64,000 nt of DNA, taken from Terasakiella sp. SH-1. Lineage in GTDB: Bacteria; Pseudomonadota; Alphaproteobacteria; Rhodospirillales; Terasakiellaceae. The notes beneath the pieces were generated by a model. That model worked only from the letters and a program-made list of their open reading frames with translations, ran no database searches and was not told the DNA's origin. Positions 31,794-44,987 of this stretch are shown piece after piece; the first letter of the stretch is position 1; every line of letters begins with the position of its first letter. Made by a program: the position numbers and the translations under genes. The stretch is from NCBI RefSeq assembly GCF_004564135.1, contig NZ_CP038255.1, positions 3,087,501 through 3,151,500 on the forward strand, read 5' to 3'.

Positions 31794-31907
31794 AGGGTTT
31801 ACACCGCAAAGTCACAATCATAAATGGCATATACAGATGGGTAACTTGCTTTGTTTTTCATTTTTGTTAATTTACAAAGATTGGGGAACTTTCAGGGAAA
31901 TATAGCC

Positions 31908-32798
31908 ATGCGTAAGCTTTTTTTACATTGTGCCATCATTTGCAGTTCATTACTTCTAGGTGATTTTTCAACGCCTGCCAGCGCACAAGATGAAATTCAG
32001 ATTAAAAAGCTGAACATTGCCGGGCGTCAGCGCATGTTGAGCCAACGCATCGCACGGGCTGCTTGTTTTATCGGGAACTATCATGACTTAAAAGGCCATC
32101 GTAAAATGCTGGCCCAAGCTATGAAAACCTTTGATGAAAGCCATGATCTGTTAAAAAATGGTCATGTAGCCGATGGCTTTCCAAAGGAAGCCGATCCCCA
32201 AATTCTTGCCGAATTGGAAAAGCTGGACCAACCCTGGACCATGCTTAAATTTGCAGCCTCTGTGTTAAGAGATAGTGCAAGCCAGCCCGGTCTGGATGTT
32301 GATATGATTGCTGCCCTGAATATGGCGGCTCTCAAACAAGCCCACAGTGTTGTTGAAACCATGGCCCGAACCTATTCAGGTGATCAAAAAGCAACAGGAA
32401 GCAGCCGTTCTATTGACATTGCCGGGCGCCAACGCATGCTGTCACAAAAAGCCGCCAAGGAATTTTGTCTGGTCTCCTATGGACTAAACATTGATCAGAA
32501 CCGTCAAGACCTCTTAAAAACAGTGCAGATGTTTGACAGCGCACTGGATGATTTACGCAACGGCAACCCTGCCCGTAACATCCCGCCTGCTCCCAGTCTC
32601 AATATCCGCACCGAACTGACCCAACTTAAAACCCAATGGCAAACCCCACGCGCCATTATGCTGGCCGTCGCCAATGGAACTGATGCCCGTGAAAAAGACT
32701 TCGATGTCATTGCCCAAACCAATGACGATATTTTAAAACAGGCCAACAAGGTTGTTGAAATGCTGGTGGCTTATTATGGCAGGTTCGAAAAATCCTAA
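31908..32798 (+). CDS. Stand-alone periplasmic PilJ/NarX-type domain protein
   Basis: 296 residues with signal peptide MRKLFLHCAIICSSLLLGDF (cleavage near ASA). It has two copies of the PilJ/NarX N-terminal sensor helix: NIAGRQRMLSQRIARAACF (about 37-55) and DIAGRQRMLSQKAAKEFCL (about 168-186). Such domains normally sit in the periplasmic part of nitrate/nitrite sensor kinases or of the pilus chemoreceptor PilJ. Here there is no TM anchor, HAMP or output domain, so it may be a soluble binding protein. ATG 31908 has CAGGGAAA upstream. Its partner is unknown. Confidence 0.8.
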   Translation: MRKLFLHCAIICSSLLLGDFSTPASAQDEIQIKKLNIAGRQRMLSQRIARAACFIGNYHDLKGHRKMLAQAMKTFDESHDLLKNGHVADGFPKEADPQILAELEKLDQPWTMLKFAASVLRDSASQPGLDVDMIAALNMAALKQAHSVVETMARTYSGDQKATGSSRSIDIAGRQRMLSQKAAKEFCLVSYGLNIDQNRQDLLKTVQMFDSALDDLRNGNPARNIPPAPSLNIRTELTQLKTQWQTPRAIMLAVANGTDAREKDFDVIAQTNDDILKQANKVVEMLVAYYGRFEKS

Positions 32799-37018: not shown

Positions 37019-37831
37019 TTAAACCTCAATCCGCTCAACCAAAGCGCCCTTATCTTCAAAACAGACGCAAACCAGTTTACCACCCAACCCGCAACCACCA
37101 TCAATACAAAGCTGGTGTTTTGCCATATGGAATCCCTGATGGCGGTGATCATAGCCGCGAATCGTGCGCTCAAATCCATTATAAGGGTGATCCAGTTCAC
37201 GAAATTCCTGCGTGCCCCACCAAAAGGCATCACTTTGTGCATCCAGCGGCATATCTGGCACCACATTGGCGTTTACAAAAAGAAGCTTCTTGTCTTCGCT
37301 GTAAGCAGCCCGCTTTAAAGCATCCATATATTGTTCATGCCCATCCATCTTATGCATGTTGTTTTTGAGCATCCCCATCCAGTTGCTCACGCCTTTCATG
37401 CCATCATGGGTGGCAGCAATCCCTTCCTCACAGCTGGTGCCATAAGCCCGAAGGGTGCTATCAACCCCTTGATTTGCCATCCAGACCAAAACTTCTTCCG
37501 GTTCCTTGGCAAAGGGGAGATGGCGCAGCTTATAGAGCATTTCTTCCTGACAGCCGCGCAAAAAGATCACATCATCCAGTTCTGCCCCATCCTGAAGAAT
37601 AACAAGACGGCGAAAGTTGAGAATCTCGTTGATACATCCCGCCACATCCGGGCCACGGCCCATGATGTTTCCGGTATAGATCAACACATCACCGGGCAGG
37701 AAATGATTGGCAAGCTGCCCATGCACAGCCTTGAGCTGTTCCAGCTGACCATGCACGGCAGACACGGCCCAAATGCGCCGTTTCCCTACGATTTCTGCAA
37801 ATTTACTACCCTGTGACATATCCGAATTCAT
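37019..37831 (-). CDS. Degenerate PPP-family metallophosphoesterase (pseudo-phosphatase)
   Basis: 270 residues that align by layout with PPP phosphatases/ApaH-like proteins but have lost the catalytic residues. GDxHG is SAVHGQ, GDxxDRG is GNIMGRGP, GNHE is GCQE, the VHAG strand is VNANV, and the GH motif is GYDHR. Only one expected His remains in the first motif. The protein is intact and full-length, so it has probably been kept for binding or regulation. An in-frame ATG at 37819 is an alternative start. It converges on uup; 36954-37018 shows no clear terminator. Confidence 0.75.
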   Translation of the reverse strand: MNSDMSQGSKFAEIVGKRRIWAVSAVHGQLEQLKAVHGQLANHFLPGDVLIYTGNIMGRGPDVAGCINEILNFRRLVILQDGAELDDVIFLRGCQEEMLYKLRHLPFAKEPEEVLVWMANQGVDSTLRAYGTSCEEGIAATHDGMKGVSNWMGMLKNNMHKMDGHEQYMDALKRAAYSEDKKLLFVNANVVPDMPLDAQSDAFWWGTQEFRELDHPYNGFERTIRGYDHRHQGFHMAKHQLCIDGGCGLGGKLVCVCFEDKGALVERIEV

Positions 37832-37902
37832 TCACCATAAGAAAAGGCAGGAGGATCATTTGACCCGTCCTGCCCATCCAAAAGACGTTTAGCGTGAGAA
37901 GC

Positions 37903-38409
37903 TTATGCAGCTTTCTCCTTCTGGAGGACGCCTTCCAGTTTCTCAGTTGCTGCAACTTTGTCAATATTTTCAACAGCTGCAACTTCATGCGCCAGACGCT
38001 CAAGCGCGGCTTCATAGATTTGACGTTCTGAGAAAGACTGGTCCGGCTGGCCAACATTGCGATAAAGATCGCGAACAACTTCTGCAATCAAAACCGGGTC
38101 GCCAGAGTTGATTTTTGCTTCATATTCCTGTGCGCGGCGACTCCACATGGTGCGCTTCACTTTGGCTTTGCCCTTCAGCGTGGTCATGGCATTTTCCATG
38201 ATTTTACCAGAACTGAGTTTGCGCAAGCCAGCAGCCTTGATTTTGCCAACCGGAACACGCAACGTCATGCGCTCATGTTCAAAGGTAATGACAAACAGCT
38301 GCAATTCGTGACCACCAATTTCCTGTGTTTCCACACCAACAACGCGGCCAACGCCATGTGTCGGATACACAACAAAGTCACCAGAATCGAACGGGAGGTT
38401 TTGAGCCAT
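37903..38409 (-). CDS. CarD family transcriptional regulator
   Basis: 168 residues. The N-terminal Tudor-like RNA-polymerase-interacting domain is clear: FVVYPTHGVGRVVGVE and then LFVITFEHERMTLRVPVGK. A helical DNA-binding part contains RRAQEYEAKINSGDPVLIAEVVRDL. CarD-type proteins bind RNAP beta and modulate open-complex formation. I start at ATG 38409 (MAQNLPFDSGD); 12 additional upstream codons lack a ribosome site. The neighbour fdxA on the same strand is separated by a terminator. Confidence 0.93.
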   Translation of the reverse strand: MAQNLPFDSGDFVVYPTHGVGRVVGVETQEIGGHELQLFVITFEHERMTLRVPVGKIKAAGLRKLSSGKIMENAMTTLKGKAKVKRTMWSRRAQEYEAKINSGDPVLIAEVVRDLYRNVGQPDQSFSERQIYEAALERLAHEVAAVENIDKVAATEKLEGVLQKEKAA

Positions 38410-38593
38410 ATTTTTTTCTCTCTTACTCTTCACACAGGCACTCACAAAACGCTCGTCACCAAAATGGCGACAAAAAAAACCATCTGCACATCTAGGCAGA
38501 AGGGTTCAAACGACAGTGAATGTCCATATGTTGTTAGTAGGCCAGTCCAGAATTCAATCAGGTTTGACAGGTCTAATTCGACTCTGGACGGTC

Positions 38594-38785: not shown

Positions 38786-39121
38786 TTAATCGCCTGCACC
38801 CGGCTTTTCACTCAGGTCTGCTTTTTTACCAGCTTTACCGTTTTGTTCGTCTGCACCTTCCATCGGCTCTTTCTTCGACGTAATGTTCGGCCAAACTTCA
38901 GAGAATTTCTGGTTAATTTCCAGCCATTCTTCAATGCCGTCTTCTGTATCCGGCAAAATTGCTTCCGCCGGGCATTCCGGTTCACACACACCACAGTCGA
39001 TACATTCATCCGGGTTAATCACCAGCGTGTTTTCACCCTCATAGAAACAATCAACCGGGCAGACCTCCACACAGTCGGTGTATTTACATTTAATACAGTT
39101 TTCCACGACAACGTAGGTCAT
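38786..39121 (-). CDS. fdxA: Seven-iron ferredoxin FdxA
   Basis: 111 residues. The cluster pattern of 7Fe ferredoxins is intact: [19 protein letters not shown] near the N terminus for the 3Fe-4S cluster and one 4Fe-4S ligand, then [17 protein letters not shown]. The C-terminal part is helical and polar, as in alphaproteobacterial FdxA, and ends in a charged tail that is not conserved. It is a low-potential electron carrier; the partner is unknown. It probably forms a single-gene transcript. Confidence 0.93.
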
Positions 39122-42339: not shown

Positions 42340-43644
42340 TCAGAACGGGAGCCCTTCCGGCTGGCCGACCACTACGGCTTTTAATTTGTCCGGTGTTAAC
42401 AAAGACTTTGCAACCCGGTTCACATCTTCAACACTCACCGCCTCAACCTGCTGGTTTCGTGTTTCCAGAAAATCAATCGGCAAACGATCGCGCTGCATGC
42501 CTGCTAAAATACTGGCAATCCGATCACTAGATTTAAAACGCAACGGGAAAGACCCTGTCAGATAGGTCTTGGCATCGGCCACTTCCTCTGCACTAAAACC
42601 ACTTTCCAATGCCTTTTGCCATTCTTCACGCACCACACCCAGCGTCTCTTTCACGCGGGCATTTTGCGTTCCTGCCCCCACCAGCCAAAGGGCTGCCTTG
42701 TCATAATTCACCAAATAGCTATAGACCGAATAAACCAATCCACGTTTTTCACGCACTTCTTCATACAGACGCGATGCAAAACCGCCGCCGCCCAGCATAT
42801 AGTTCAAGACATAGGCCGGATAAAAATCCTCATGGTGGCGATCAATGCCCCCTTGAACCATCATAATACTGCTTTGCGGTATCGGCTTTGAAATCACCTG
42901 TGTCTTCTTATTCAAGGTCAACGATGCCTCAGGTAACTGCCACGCGGCTGCTTTATCCGGCAAAGAACCGAAAGTTTCGTCCAACAATTTTTGCAATGCC
43001 TGCGCGGTGATATCCCCGGATACGCCAATCACCAGATTGTCTTTCCCCAGACGCGTCTTTACAAAATGAGCTAAATCTTCCCGACTGACGTTTTGAATAC
43101 CTGTAATTGTCCCTTTCGAACCACGTCCATAAGGGTGGAAACCTAAAACAGACTTGTAAAGCGCCAATGTCCCAAGTGTTGCCGGGTCTTCCTGACGCTG
43201 TCTCAGATCAGCCAGAATTTGCGAGCGCATACGTTCAACAGGCTCCCCATCAAAACGTGGGTGCATCAAGGCTGTTTTCAGCATGTCCATCGCCGCATCC
43301 ATATTTTCACGCAGTGTCAAAACCCGCCCATTAAAATTATCCATCCCAGCCTCAAAGCGCAGGGTAATGGACAAAGCTTCAAGACGGGACTGAAAAGCCT
43401 GAGAATCCCATTTTCCGGCCCCTTCATCCATCGTGGCAGAGGCCAAACGCGCCAGCCCTTCTTTCCCGACAGGATCAAGGGCAGCGCCCCCGCGAAAGGA
43501 AAAATGCAAGGAAACAATCGGGTTGGTGTGATCTTCAATCAACCATGCCGTCACACCACTGCTGGATTTCACCTCCTGCACCGGAGCCAATGCATGGGCT
43601 GGAAGGCTGAACAAAAAGCCAAGGATCAAAAAAAGCAACCGCAT
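42340..43644 (-). CDS. M16 family peptidase homologue, non-catalytic partner
   Basis: 434 residues with signal peptide MRLLFLILGFLFSLPAHA. It has the M16 fold, but the inverted Zn motif HxxEH is absent: the equivalent stretch reads GLARLASATMDEGAG. The C-terminal part keeps the RGLVYSVYSYL-type Arg/Tyr substrate-binding pair. This is the usual make-up of the inactive half in heterodimeric M16B pairs. It begins two bases after the stop of the catalytic partner gene, supporting a complex in the periplasm. Confidence 0.87.
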   Translation of the reverse strand: MRLLFLILGFLFSLPAHALAPVQEVKSSSGVTAWLIEDHTNPIVSLHFSFRGGAALDPVGKEGLARLASATMDEGAGKWDSQAFQSRLEALSITLRFEAGMDNFNGRVLTLRENMDAAMDMLKTALMHPRFDGEPVERMRSQILADLRQRQEDPATLGTLALYKSVLGFHPYGRGSKGTITGIQNVSREDLAHFVKTRLGKDNLVIGVSGDITAQALQKLLDETFGSLPDKAAAWQLPEASLTLNKKTQVISKPIPQSSIMMVQGGIDRHHEDFYPAYVLNYMLGGGGFASRLYEEVREKRGLVYSVYSYLVNYDKAALWLVGAGTQNARVKETLGVVREEWQKALESGFSAEEVADAKTYLTGSFPLRFKSSDRIASILAGMQRDRLPIDFLETRNQQVEAVSVEDVNRVAKSLLTPDKLKAVVVGQPEGLPF

Positions 43645-43646
43645 GA

Positions 43647-44987
43647 TTATTTATCCTCCAATCCCAGTAACAGGCCGGTCACTGTTTTCTGGTCTTTCAA
43701 CACAGTGCGCAAAGCCCGATTCACATCCTCAACCGTGATGGCCTGAATGGCATCGGGCCAGCTTTCAATTTGATCAACTGAAAGACCAATCGCCATCGCC
43801 CCGCCAATCACTTGTGCCGCTGTCCCAAGATTATCCCGTGCAAAAACAGCATCATTAACCAAAGACTTTTGTGCACGTGCGACTTCATCAAAACTTACGC
43901 CTTTTTCAAGCAACACACTGATCTCTTTTAAAAGCGCCTCTTCCAGCACCGCCATGGAAACACCGGCCTGCGGGCTGGCCCAGAACGTCAATTCCGACAT
44001 ATCCAAACGACTGGGTGAATAGGACATTCCAGCAGAAACCGCCAGTTTCTGATCAATCACAAGCGAGGTATAGAGCCTGCTGGTCGCTGCCCCCCCCATG
44101 ATATTTTCCAGAATTTCCAAGGCATAGGGCGCTTTGTCATCTTCTGTGCTGGTGCGATAGCTCGGCGCAAGATATGTCCGTTGCAAGCTGGGTTGACGCA
44201 CCCGCTGGTCCCGTTTAATCACCCGGCGATCAGCATGGGCAGGGGGTTCAGTTGGGCGCAGGCGTATCATTTCTGGCCCACGGGGAATGCTGCCATAATG
44301 TTTTTCAGCCAGCGGCTTAAGTTCTGCCATGCTGACATCCCCTTCCACAATCAAGATGGCATTATTGGGCGCATACCAAGCCTTATAAAAACGATTAAGG
44401 TCTTCCAGGCTCAGGGCTTTAATCTCATGAGCCCAGCCAATAACAGGAATACGATAAGGGTGGTTCATATATTGAACCGTATCAATTTGTTCGCGCAACT
44501 GTGCCCCCGGATTATTATCCGTGCGTTGGCGGCGTTCTTCCAAAATGACCTGACGTTCTGGCTCAATCACCTCTTTGGTCAGGCTCAAATTGGTCATGCG
44601 ATCCGCTTCCATCTCCATGACCAGCCCGAGGCGGTCTTTGGCAACGGTTTGGTAATAAGCGGTGTAATCATATGAGGTAAAGGCGTTATCCTGCCCACCG
44701 TTTTTTGCCACAATTTTGGAAAACTCACCTGCAGCCAGTTTCTTGGTGGCCTTGAACATCAAATGTTCAAAATAATGGGCAATACCGGACTTACCCGCAG
44801 GTTCATCGGCGGACCCTACCTTATACCACACCATATGGCGCACCACAGGCACCCGGTTGTTTTCGATAAGAACGACCTCCATCCCGTTATCCAGCGTGAA
44901 GGTCTTGGGATTAAACACACCCGCAGAAACAGGAAAGGCCAAAAGAAGACCGAGAATAACAAGCAGATAACGCAACGCGAACCTCAC
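43647..44987 (-). CDS. M16 family zinc peptidase, catalytic partner
   Basis: 446 residues with signal peptide (LRYLLVILGLLLAFPVSAG). The inverted Zn motif is intact: GIAHYFEHLMFKAT (HxxEH, near residue 64), followed by the downstream Glu in EMEADRM. Together with the next gene it should form an M16B heterodimer. The start is GTG at 44987, with weak evidence; a TTG at 44975 is also possible. The order lspA-DUF3035-M16-M16 recurs in alphaproteobacteria; the substrate is unknown. Confidence 0.9.
   Translation of the reverse strand: MRFALRYLLVILGLLLAFPVSAGVFNPKTFTLDNGMEVVLIENNRVPVVRHMVWYKVGSADEPAGKSGIAHYFEHLMFKATKKLAAGEFSKIVAKNGGQDNAFTSYDYTAYYQTVAKDRLGLVMEMEADRMTNLSLTKEVIEPERQVILEERRQRTDNNPGAQLREQIDTVQYMNHPYRIPVIGWAHEIKALSLEDLNRFYKAWYAPNNAILIVEGDVSMAELKPLAEKHYGSIPRGPEMIRLRPTEPPAHADRRVIKRDQRVRQPSLQRTYLAPSYRTSTEDDKAPYALEILENIMGGAATSRLYTSLVIDQKLAVSAGMSYSPSRLDMSELTFWASPQAGVSMAVLEEALLKEISVLLEKGVSFDEVARAQKSLVNDAVFARDNLGTAAQVIGGAMAIGLSVDQIESWPDAIQAITVEDVNRALRTVLKDQKTVTGLLLGLEDK

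Follow-up and report, generated by a model that had tools for sequence, protein, structure and literature searches.

A PPP-fold protein encoded beside carD in Terasakiella and other Alphaproteobacteria is a probable pseudophosphatase

Can a protein of the PPP superfamily that has lost almost its entire metal centre still be maintained for a function and, if so, for which one? This question is raised by an open reading frame in the window, the whole stretch of 64,000 nucleotides from Terasakiella sp. SH-1 analysed here, for which a first-pass annotation had proposed a full-length PPP phosphatase homologue with nearly all metal ligands replaced. The frame is indeed open and intact at 37019-37831; it lies on the minus strand, which the annotation had not stated, and comprises 270 codons with the first ATG. 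As the orthologues start at an internal ATG at 37819, the fifth codon, a protein of 266 amino acids is likelier than one of 270, with 37820-37831 representing four extra codons. All four motif variants originally quoted, SAVHG, GNIMGRG, GCQEE and VNANV, are present in the translation, and no other match to the protein, here designated pseudo-PPP, was detected at E ≤ 1 in its own genome (3.83 Mb, a single contig). The features of the locus are collected in Table 1.

Table 1. Features of the pseudo-PPP locus, in positions of the window; active-site positions carry presumed PP1 residue numbers
Feature	Position	Strand	Description
pseudo-PPP gene	37019..37819	-	266 aa; from the open reading frame, orthologue starts, family alignment A2 (26 rows) and AF2 model (pLDDT 90.2)
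old GDxHG	37751..37759	-	D64 = Ala (37757-37759); H66 = His, kept (37751-37753)
old GDxxDRG	37658..37669	-	D92 = Asn (37667-37669); D95 = Gly (37658-37660)
old GNHE	37547..37552	-	N124 = Cys (37550-37552); catalytic H125 = Gln (37547-37549)
old VHAG	37271..37273	-	H173 = Asn; Asn in 6/6 Terasakiella genomes
substrate Arg (R221-like)	37211..37213	-	Thr; aligned to the WIR motif of intact PPPs
old GHT	37151..37153	-	H248 = Tyr
carD/cdnL	37903..38445	-	directly upstream of pseudo-PPP; probable start ATG 38409; Pfam CarD_C and CarD_TRCF_RID
fdxA ferredoxin	38786..39121	-	upstream of carD; NCBIfam FdxA_Protbact above cut-off
terminator-like hairpin with T-rich tail	37845..37875	-	in the carD/pseudo-PPP gap (83 nt); predicted -21.0 kcal/mol

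With a single sequence and with curated family models the relationship to PPPs appears faint. A phmmer search with the single sequence finds ApaH as a weak match (E 0.007), the sole Pfam match of the window protein is to PF14582 (12.9 bits vs a cut-off of 28.2), and Metallophos (PF00149) as modelled in Pfam is not matched by the window protein and reaches E ≤ 0.1 in three of 26 family members (best E 0.0037). Among the NCBIfam models, ApaH (NF001204) scores 21.9 bits vs a curated cut-off of 176, so that the window protein falls short of an assignment to ApaH, and two Ser/Thr phosphatase models score 22.5 and 17.2 bits, far below their cut-offs. Profile comparison places the protein in the superfamily over its full length: the NinI-like Ser/Thr phosphatase family phrog_246 of PHROGs is matched over residues 13-260 (E 2.9e-13), hhalign aligns the profile of 158 relatives with that of nine intact PPPs over 236 columns (99.9%, E 1.4e-34), and a second comparison of alignment A2 (26 rows) with alignment A3 (6 rows) gives 99.7% (E 2.5e-25).

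The structural model points in the same direction. The AF2 model, obtained from an alignment to which 40 viral PPPs had been added, has a pLDDT of 90.2 and a pTM of 0.90 and matches PPP structures with Z 17.3-22.0 among the 50 matches listed, including 5vjv (Z 22.0), the PnkP phosphatase domain 4j6o (21.0), 2qjc (20.9), lambda PPase 1g5b (20.0) and ApaH (18.3). As the 40 viral sequences push the model toward the PPP fold, the profile comparison provides the more independent evidence, and the matches of an earlier AF2 model from five close sequences alone are taken as a hint only because its pLDDT was poor (56.6). Judged by profiles and model together, the similarity exceeds chance and reflects a PPP (calcineurin-like) fold and homology over the full length, which upholds the homology initially proposed.

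Which residues of the active site are left was read in the columns of the alignment to intact PPPs, the ligand and catalytic positions being named by residue numbers that we take to be those of PP1. One of the six metal ligands (D, H, D, N, H, H) is left in the window protein, namely H66. Of the catalytic set R96 is kept, with D95 exchanged for Gly, H125 for Gln and the R221-like residue for Thr; E126 is kept as well. The equipment of a catalytically competent PPP is thus missing, as besides the ligands the His/Asp pair and the second Arg are gone. The near-total replacement of metal ligands suspected from the motifs is therefore real, and extends to a fifth motif, GHT, where the change of H248 to Tyr had been overlooked. 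All six Terasakiella genomes are alike at these positions; only D64 varies, being Ala or Ser.

The loss is not a peculiarity of one genus. Residues were tallied in 158 relatives, derived from 159 distinct family sequences by dropping one (L015) more than 97% identical to another; the tally leaves out 23 of the 134 matching genomes of the class and 41 of the 92 strong genomes of the order (see below) as well as the loci from the phylum search. None of the 158 possesses the intact six-ligand set, as 17 keep no ligand, 65 keep one, 69 keep two and seven keep three, the maximum, and in none is more than one of D95, R96 and H125 retained. The aspartate at D64 is absent from all 157 sequences that could be read at this position (Ala in 104, Ser in 45), D95 is lost in all 158 (Gly in 157), Arg is found at the R221-like position in none of 158, and H125 is replaced by Gln in 146 and retained as His in one. 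D92 is Asn in 140/158, N124 is Asn in 4/158 and otherwise Ala, Ser, Gln, Gly or Cys, and H248 is His in 5/157. The remainder of the site is kept to different degrees: E126, the Glu following the H125 position, is found in 158/158, H66 in 128/157, R96 in 55/155, and position H173 is occupied by His in 76, Asn in 41 and Ser in 30 of the 158. As H66 and, in part, H173 are kept, one residual metal is conceivable on the basis of the alignment.

In eleven of the 158 relatives (L011, L014, L019, L021, L028, L033, L034, L052, L057, L064 and L065) position D92 is Asp, which may be a reversion to the former ligand while the remaining site stayed lost. Nine canonical PPP paralogues aligned for reference keep every aligned motif residue, eight of them at all positions. 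Orthologues sharing the replacements, the search for which had been suggested together with the original description, are thus found in number; an orthologue with intact ligands at this locus was not encountered among the 158, of which 138 lie beside carD.

Other columns of the family are, by contrast, invariant or nearly so. At least 90% conservation is observed in 49 of 265 columns, which include, in the numbering of the window protein, W17, R70, an LRG motif, QEE, W147, G160-H161, W200-W201 and an RG pair in the strand that formerly carried GHT. The conserved columns W17, R70, Q91, E93, W147, G160, W200 and R221 are unlike those of intact PPPs; H161 and D240 are conserved in both groups. 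In a tree calculated after removal of the motif columns from 73 family rows (70 diverse sequences with fewer than 40 gaps plus three from Terasakiella) and eight of the nine paralogues, the eight intact PPPs are split from the 73 family rows by a long branch with an SH-aLRT support of 100, a split that can be called a clade only with the root placed outside it; the inner order is unsure, with long branches and 43 of 78 forks open. On this tree, H173 changes 32 times, N124 32 times and H248 34 times, D95 changes twice and E126 not at all.

With respect to distribution, a match is present in six of six genomes of Terasakiellaceae, all of one genus. In the order, 124/199 genomes are matched at E ≤ 0.001, and a strong group with E ≤ 4e-43 comprises 92/199; the nine weaker matches that were read are intact PPP paralogues. 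In the class, the A2 profile detects 134/385 genomes at E ≤ 1e-15, with one match each, distributed over 100 of 277 genera. A phylum sample yields 17/398 genomes at E ≤ 1e-10, among them 13 with more than 150 bits, all Alphaproteobacteria; as the single match outside the class has 53 bits, within the range of 33-65 bits of intact PPPs, it is not counted as a member. Among the 398 genomes of this sample, for which the number from outside the class is not given, the matches suggest that the family is likely restricted to Alphaproteobacteria. The viral contigs scanned with the family profile contain no relative, and a plasmid collection contributes one match, annotated as metallophosphoesterase, with 31% identity over 68% of the query. 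One genome of the order, G096, encodes two different members (L061 and L062), each behind its own fdxA-carD, which reflects either duplication of the block or an assembly of mixed origin.

The frame is under strong purifying selection as estimated from codon comparisons. Relative to G002, the nearest genome with 89% identity and one of 15 Terasakiella pairs, dN/dS is 0.053 (YN00) or 0.064 (NG86) at a dS of about 1.2, and pN/pS ranges from 0.125 to 0.285 over the 15 pairs, in five of which synonymous sites are saturated. In the same genomes the YN00 dN/dS is tighter for CarD (0.008-0.034) and similar or looser for FdxA (0.027-0.192). A ratio near 0.06, together with the absence of an intact-ligand orthologue among 158, supports well, on sequence grounds, the original proposal that selection acts on a non-catalytic role.

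Taken together, lost motifs, a retained fold and purifying selection across orthologues are, as read from alignments and model, the marks of a pseudoenzyme, and the protein is very probably a pseudophosphatase with a binding role, which has kept the PPP fold and lost catalysis. The two-metal centre and the catalytic residues would have disappeared early, ahead of the spread of the family through the Alphaproteobacteria; the PPP (calcineurin-like) fold would have been retained in full, and purifying selection would maintain a non-catalytic, binding role. Such a protein would no longer hydrolyse phosphate and would work by binding a partner, for which the candidates are CarD/CdnL, RNA polymerase at promoters that depend on CarD, or a ligand reporting to them. 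The loss shared throughout the family and the usual carD neighbour suggest that it is probably an old, selected non-catalytic protein. Two alternatives considered below, a role unrelated to CarD and the sensing of a small molecule, differ from this reading in the role only and lie within it.

Whether the binding role concerns CarD depends on how the gene neighbourhood is interpreted. In the window, 71 bases separate the end of carD from the open frame, 83 from its likelier start, and both are on the same strand. Across the family, carD is located immediately upstream on the same strand in 138/158 loci, with a median gap of 110.5 nt, and 119 of these 138 carry fdxA as well; of the 20 loci without adjacent carD, 19 had at least 1000 bases upstream and one was short of flank. 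This gene order, preserved among relatives most of which are less than 50% identical to the window protein, makes a link to CarD or RNA polymerase possible, though a tentative one. A somewhat more likely reading, to which nearly even chances may be given, is a pseudophosphatase whose role is unrelated to CarD, the carD neighbourhood being inherited gene order. Indeed, in 34 genomes chosen for lacking pseudo-PPP, carD is found in 32, and fdxA stands beside carD in 25 of 30 loci without pseudo-PPP, so that the fdxA-carD pair holds without the third gene and the block may be passively kept.

The terminator-like hairpin in the gap equally speaks for an unrelated role. Such a hairpin occurs in 77/131 family gaps of at least 25 bases vs 22/131 after one single-base shuffle, and it is located at the same place in six of six Terasakiella genomes although the letters of the inner stem differ; the consensus scan of the window omitted it because loops were limited to 3-8. 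With a terminator-like hairpin between the genes, a simple carD-pseudo-PPP operon is uncertain, and the proposed CarD/RNA polymerase role is weakened. Besides the preserved adjacency, two observations stand against the unrelated role. In the 107 loci with longer flanks no open-frame cluster downstream exceeds 26 loci (upstream, a helicase-like gene is found in 35 loci and a gene for an S4-type RNA-binding protein in 12, in a clustering with unequal flanks, some shadow frames and names read from sequence). Moreover, over 117 loci the partial rank correlation of pseudo-PPP distances is 0.32 with CarD given FdxA and 0.18 with FdxA given CarD; this small difference, without phylogenetic correction, is suggestive of pseudo-PPP tracking CarD over FdxA.

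The CarD encoded in the window ends in a C-terminal -AA (37903-37911, minus strand) like the ClpXP-sensitive tail of Caulobacter CdnL. According to the accessible part of the corresponding report, this -AA-type tail is ClpXP-sensitive in Caulobacter and CdnL is a ClpXP target in starvation (PMC11034885). As a link to pseudo-PPP the tail was considered and rejected, as it is as common without the gene (26/30) as with it (125/140), which again is compatible with an unrelated role. Caulobacter CdnL is described, in the accessible part of a further report, to bind RNA polymerase, and its depletion to impair rRNA transcription (PMC5324124). The words phosphatase and ferredoxin are absent from the main text of the term-searched Caulobacter CdnL papers. 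The Caulobacter locus tag CC0653 designates cdnL and CC0655 a GGDEF protein, and CC_0654 was not found in the literature searched, so that these tags yield no placement of pseudo-PPP in Caulobacter. In its most specific form, a dedicated CarD/CdnL partner in which the surface of the dead PPP binds CarD, RNA polymerase or their signalling ligand, the CarD connection is rather unlikely; if it holds true, the protein would tune the transcription of rRNA and transcription related to growth across much of the class.

Other genes of the window provide observations in their own right. The gene at 31851-32798 has two neighbouring matches in G002 (locus L054, 1822-3641) with 53% and 32% identity, which suggests a tandem duplicate. 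The adjacent genes at 42340-43644 and 43647-44987, both on the minus strand, show a weak match to each other's orthologues (23-26% identity in L054) and therefore have the appearance of an ancient tandem pair.

A sensor role, in which the pseudophosphatase would bind a small molecule that carries phosphate, for example an Ap4A-type dinucleotide or an alarmone, and leave it uncut, is improbable, though less so than the readings that follow. Within the family, the weak NCBIfam matches are most often to ApaH (21 of 26 members; the best E-value in NCBIfam among the 26 is 4e-7), 2qjc, a putative Ap4A hydrolase, ranks first in the profile search and in the two Foldseek lists, and H161 and D240, shared with intact PPPs, remain. 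Against such a ligand, the R221-like Arg is lost throughout and R96 mostly lost, which implies that the phosphate clamp is largely gone. With Gln91-Glu92-Glu93 and the tryptophans conserved and the phosphate-binding arginines lost or variable, a protein would be the likelier partner, ahead of a ligand with phosphate.

That the protein remains an enzyme, be it through a single metal, a rearranged site or another type of chemistry, is quite improbable. The high conservation of old active-site positions, with Q91 and E92 of the window protein (the H125 and E126 positions) and H66 conserved as given above, would be compatible with it; however, no fixed substitute metal-binding set is recognizable, as D64 is mostly Ala or Ser and N124 any of five residues, and H173 takes 32 changes on the tree. 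A decaying pseudogene can be dismissed, as the missing catalytic motifs and one stop in the matched span of three matches (G002, G079 and G535), that of G002 being located upstream of the start codon common to the orthologues, are outweighed by a dN/dS near 0.06, the 49 columns with at least 90% conservation and the presence in 134/385 genomes of the class.

The preferred reading, a pseudophosphatase with a binding role, has implications beyond Terasakiella. It describes an old and widespread pseudoenzyme family beside a global transcription regulator, which should be tractable, provides an example of a PPP fold retained without metals, and raises the question whether an extra layer of control acts on CarD in alphaproteobacteria. 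Automatic annotation may miss members of the family or label them phosphatase. In the literature searched, as far as its text was accessible, neither a PPP-type pseudoenzyme in Alphaproteobacteria or beside carD nor a description of the family was found, many subscription papers being beyond the reach of the search; most likely, the protein is of a known kind, a pseudoenzyme of the PPP superfamily, in a family so far unnamed.

In comparison with known systems, the protein resembles ApaH, the symmetrical bis(5'-nucleosyl)-tetraphosphatase (PDB 2dfj and 9ojd), in length and fold, with Z 17.9-18.3 over 197 residues for the AF2 model, the structural comparison with ApaH suggested in the first-pass annotation, but differs by its score far under the ApaH cut-off and by the absence of metal ligands and catalytic residues. 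With the bacterial and phage PPP Ser/Thr phosphatases, such as lambda PPase (1g5b), PrpA/PrpB and NinI-like phrog_246, it shares the fold and the positions of the motifs, and with the intact alphaproteobacterial PPPs the profile match, whereas the ligands of GDxHG, GDxxDRG, GNHE and GHT are lost and a long, supported branch lies between. The best structural match is to Rhizobiales-like phosphatase 2 (5vjv, Z 22.0 over 222 residues), although the identity is 16% over the aligned part and 5vjv has been deposited as a phosphatase. In combining a retained fold with lost catalytic motifs and evident selection, the protein is most like the bacterial pseudokinases, pseudo-receivers and pseudophosphatases, as these are portrayed in the accessible part of the literature.
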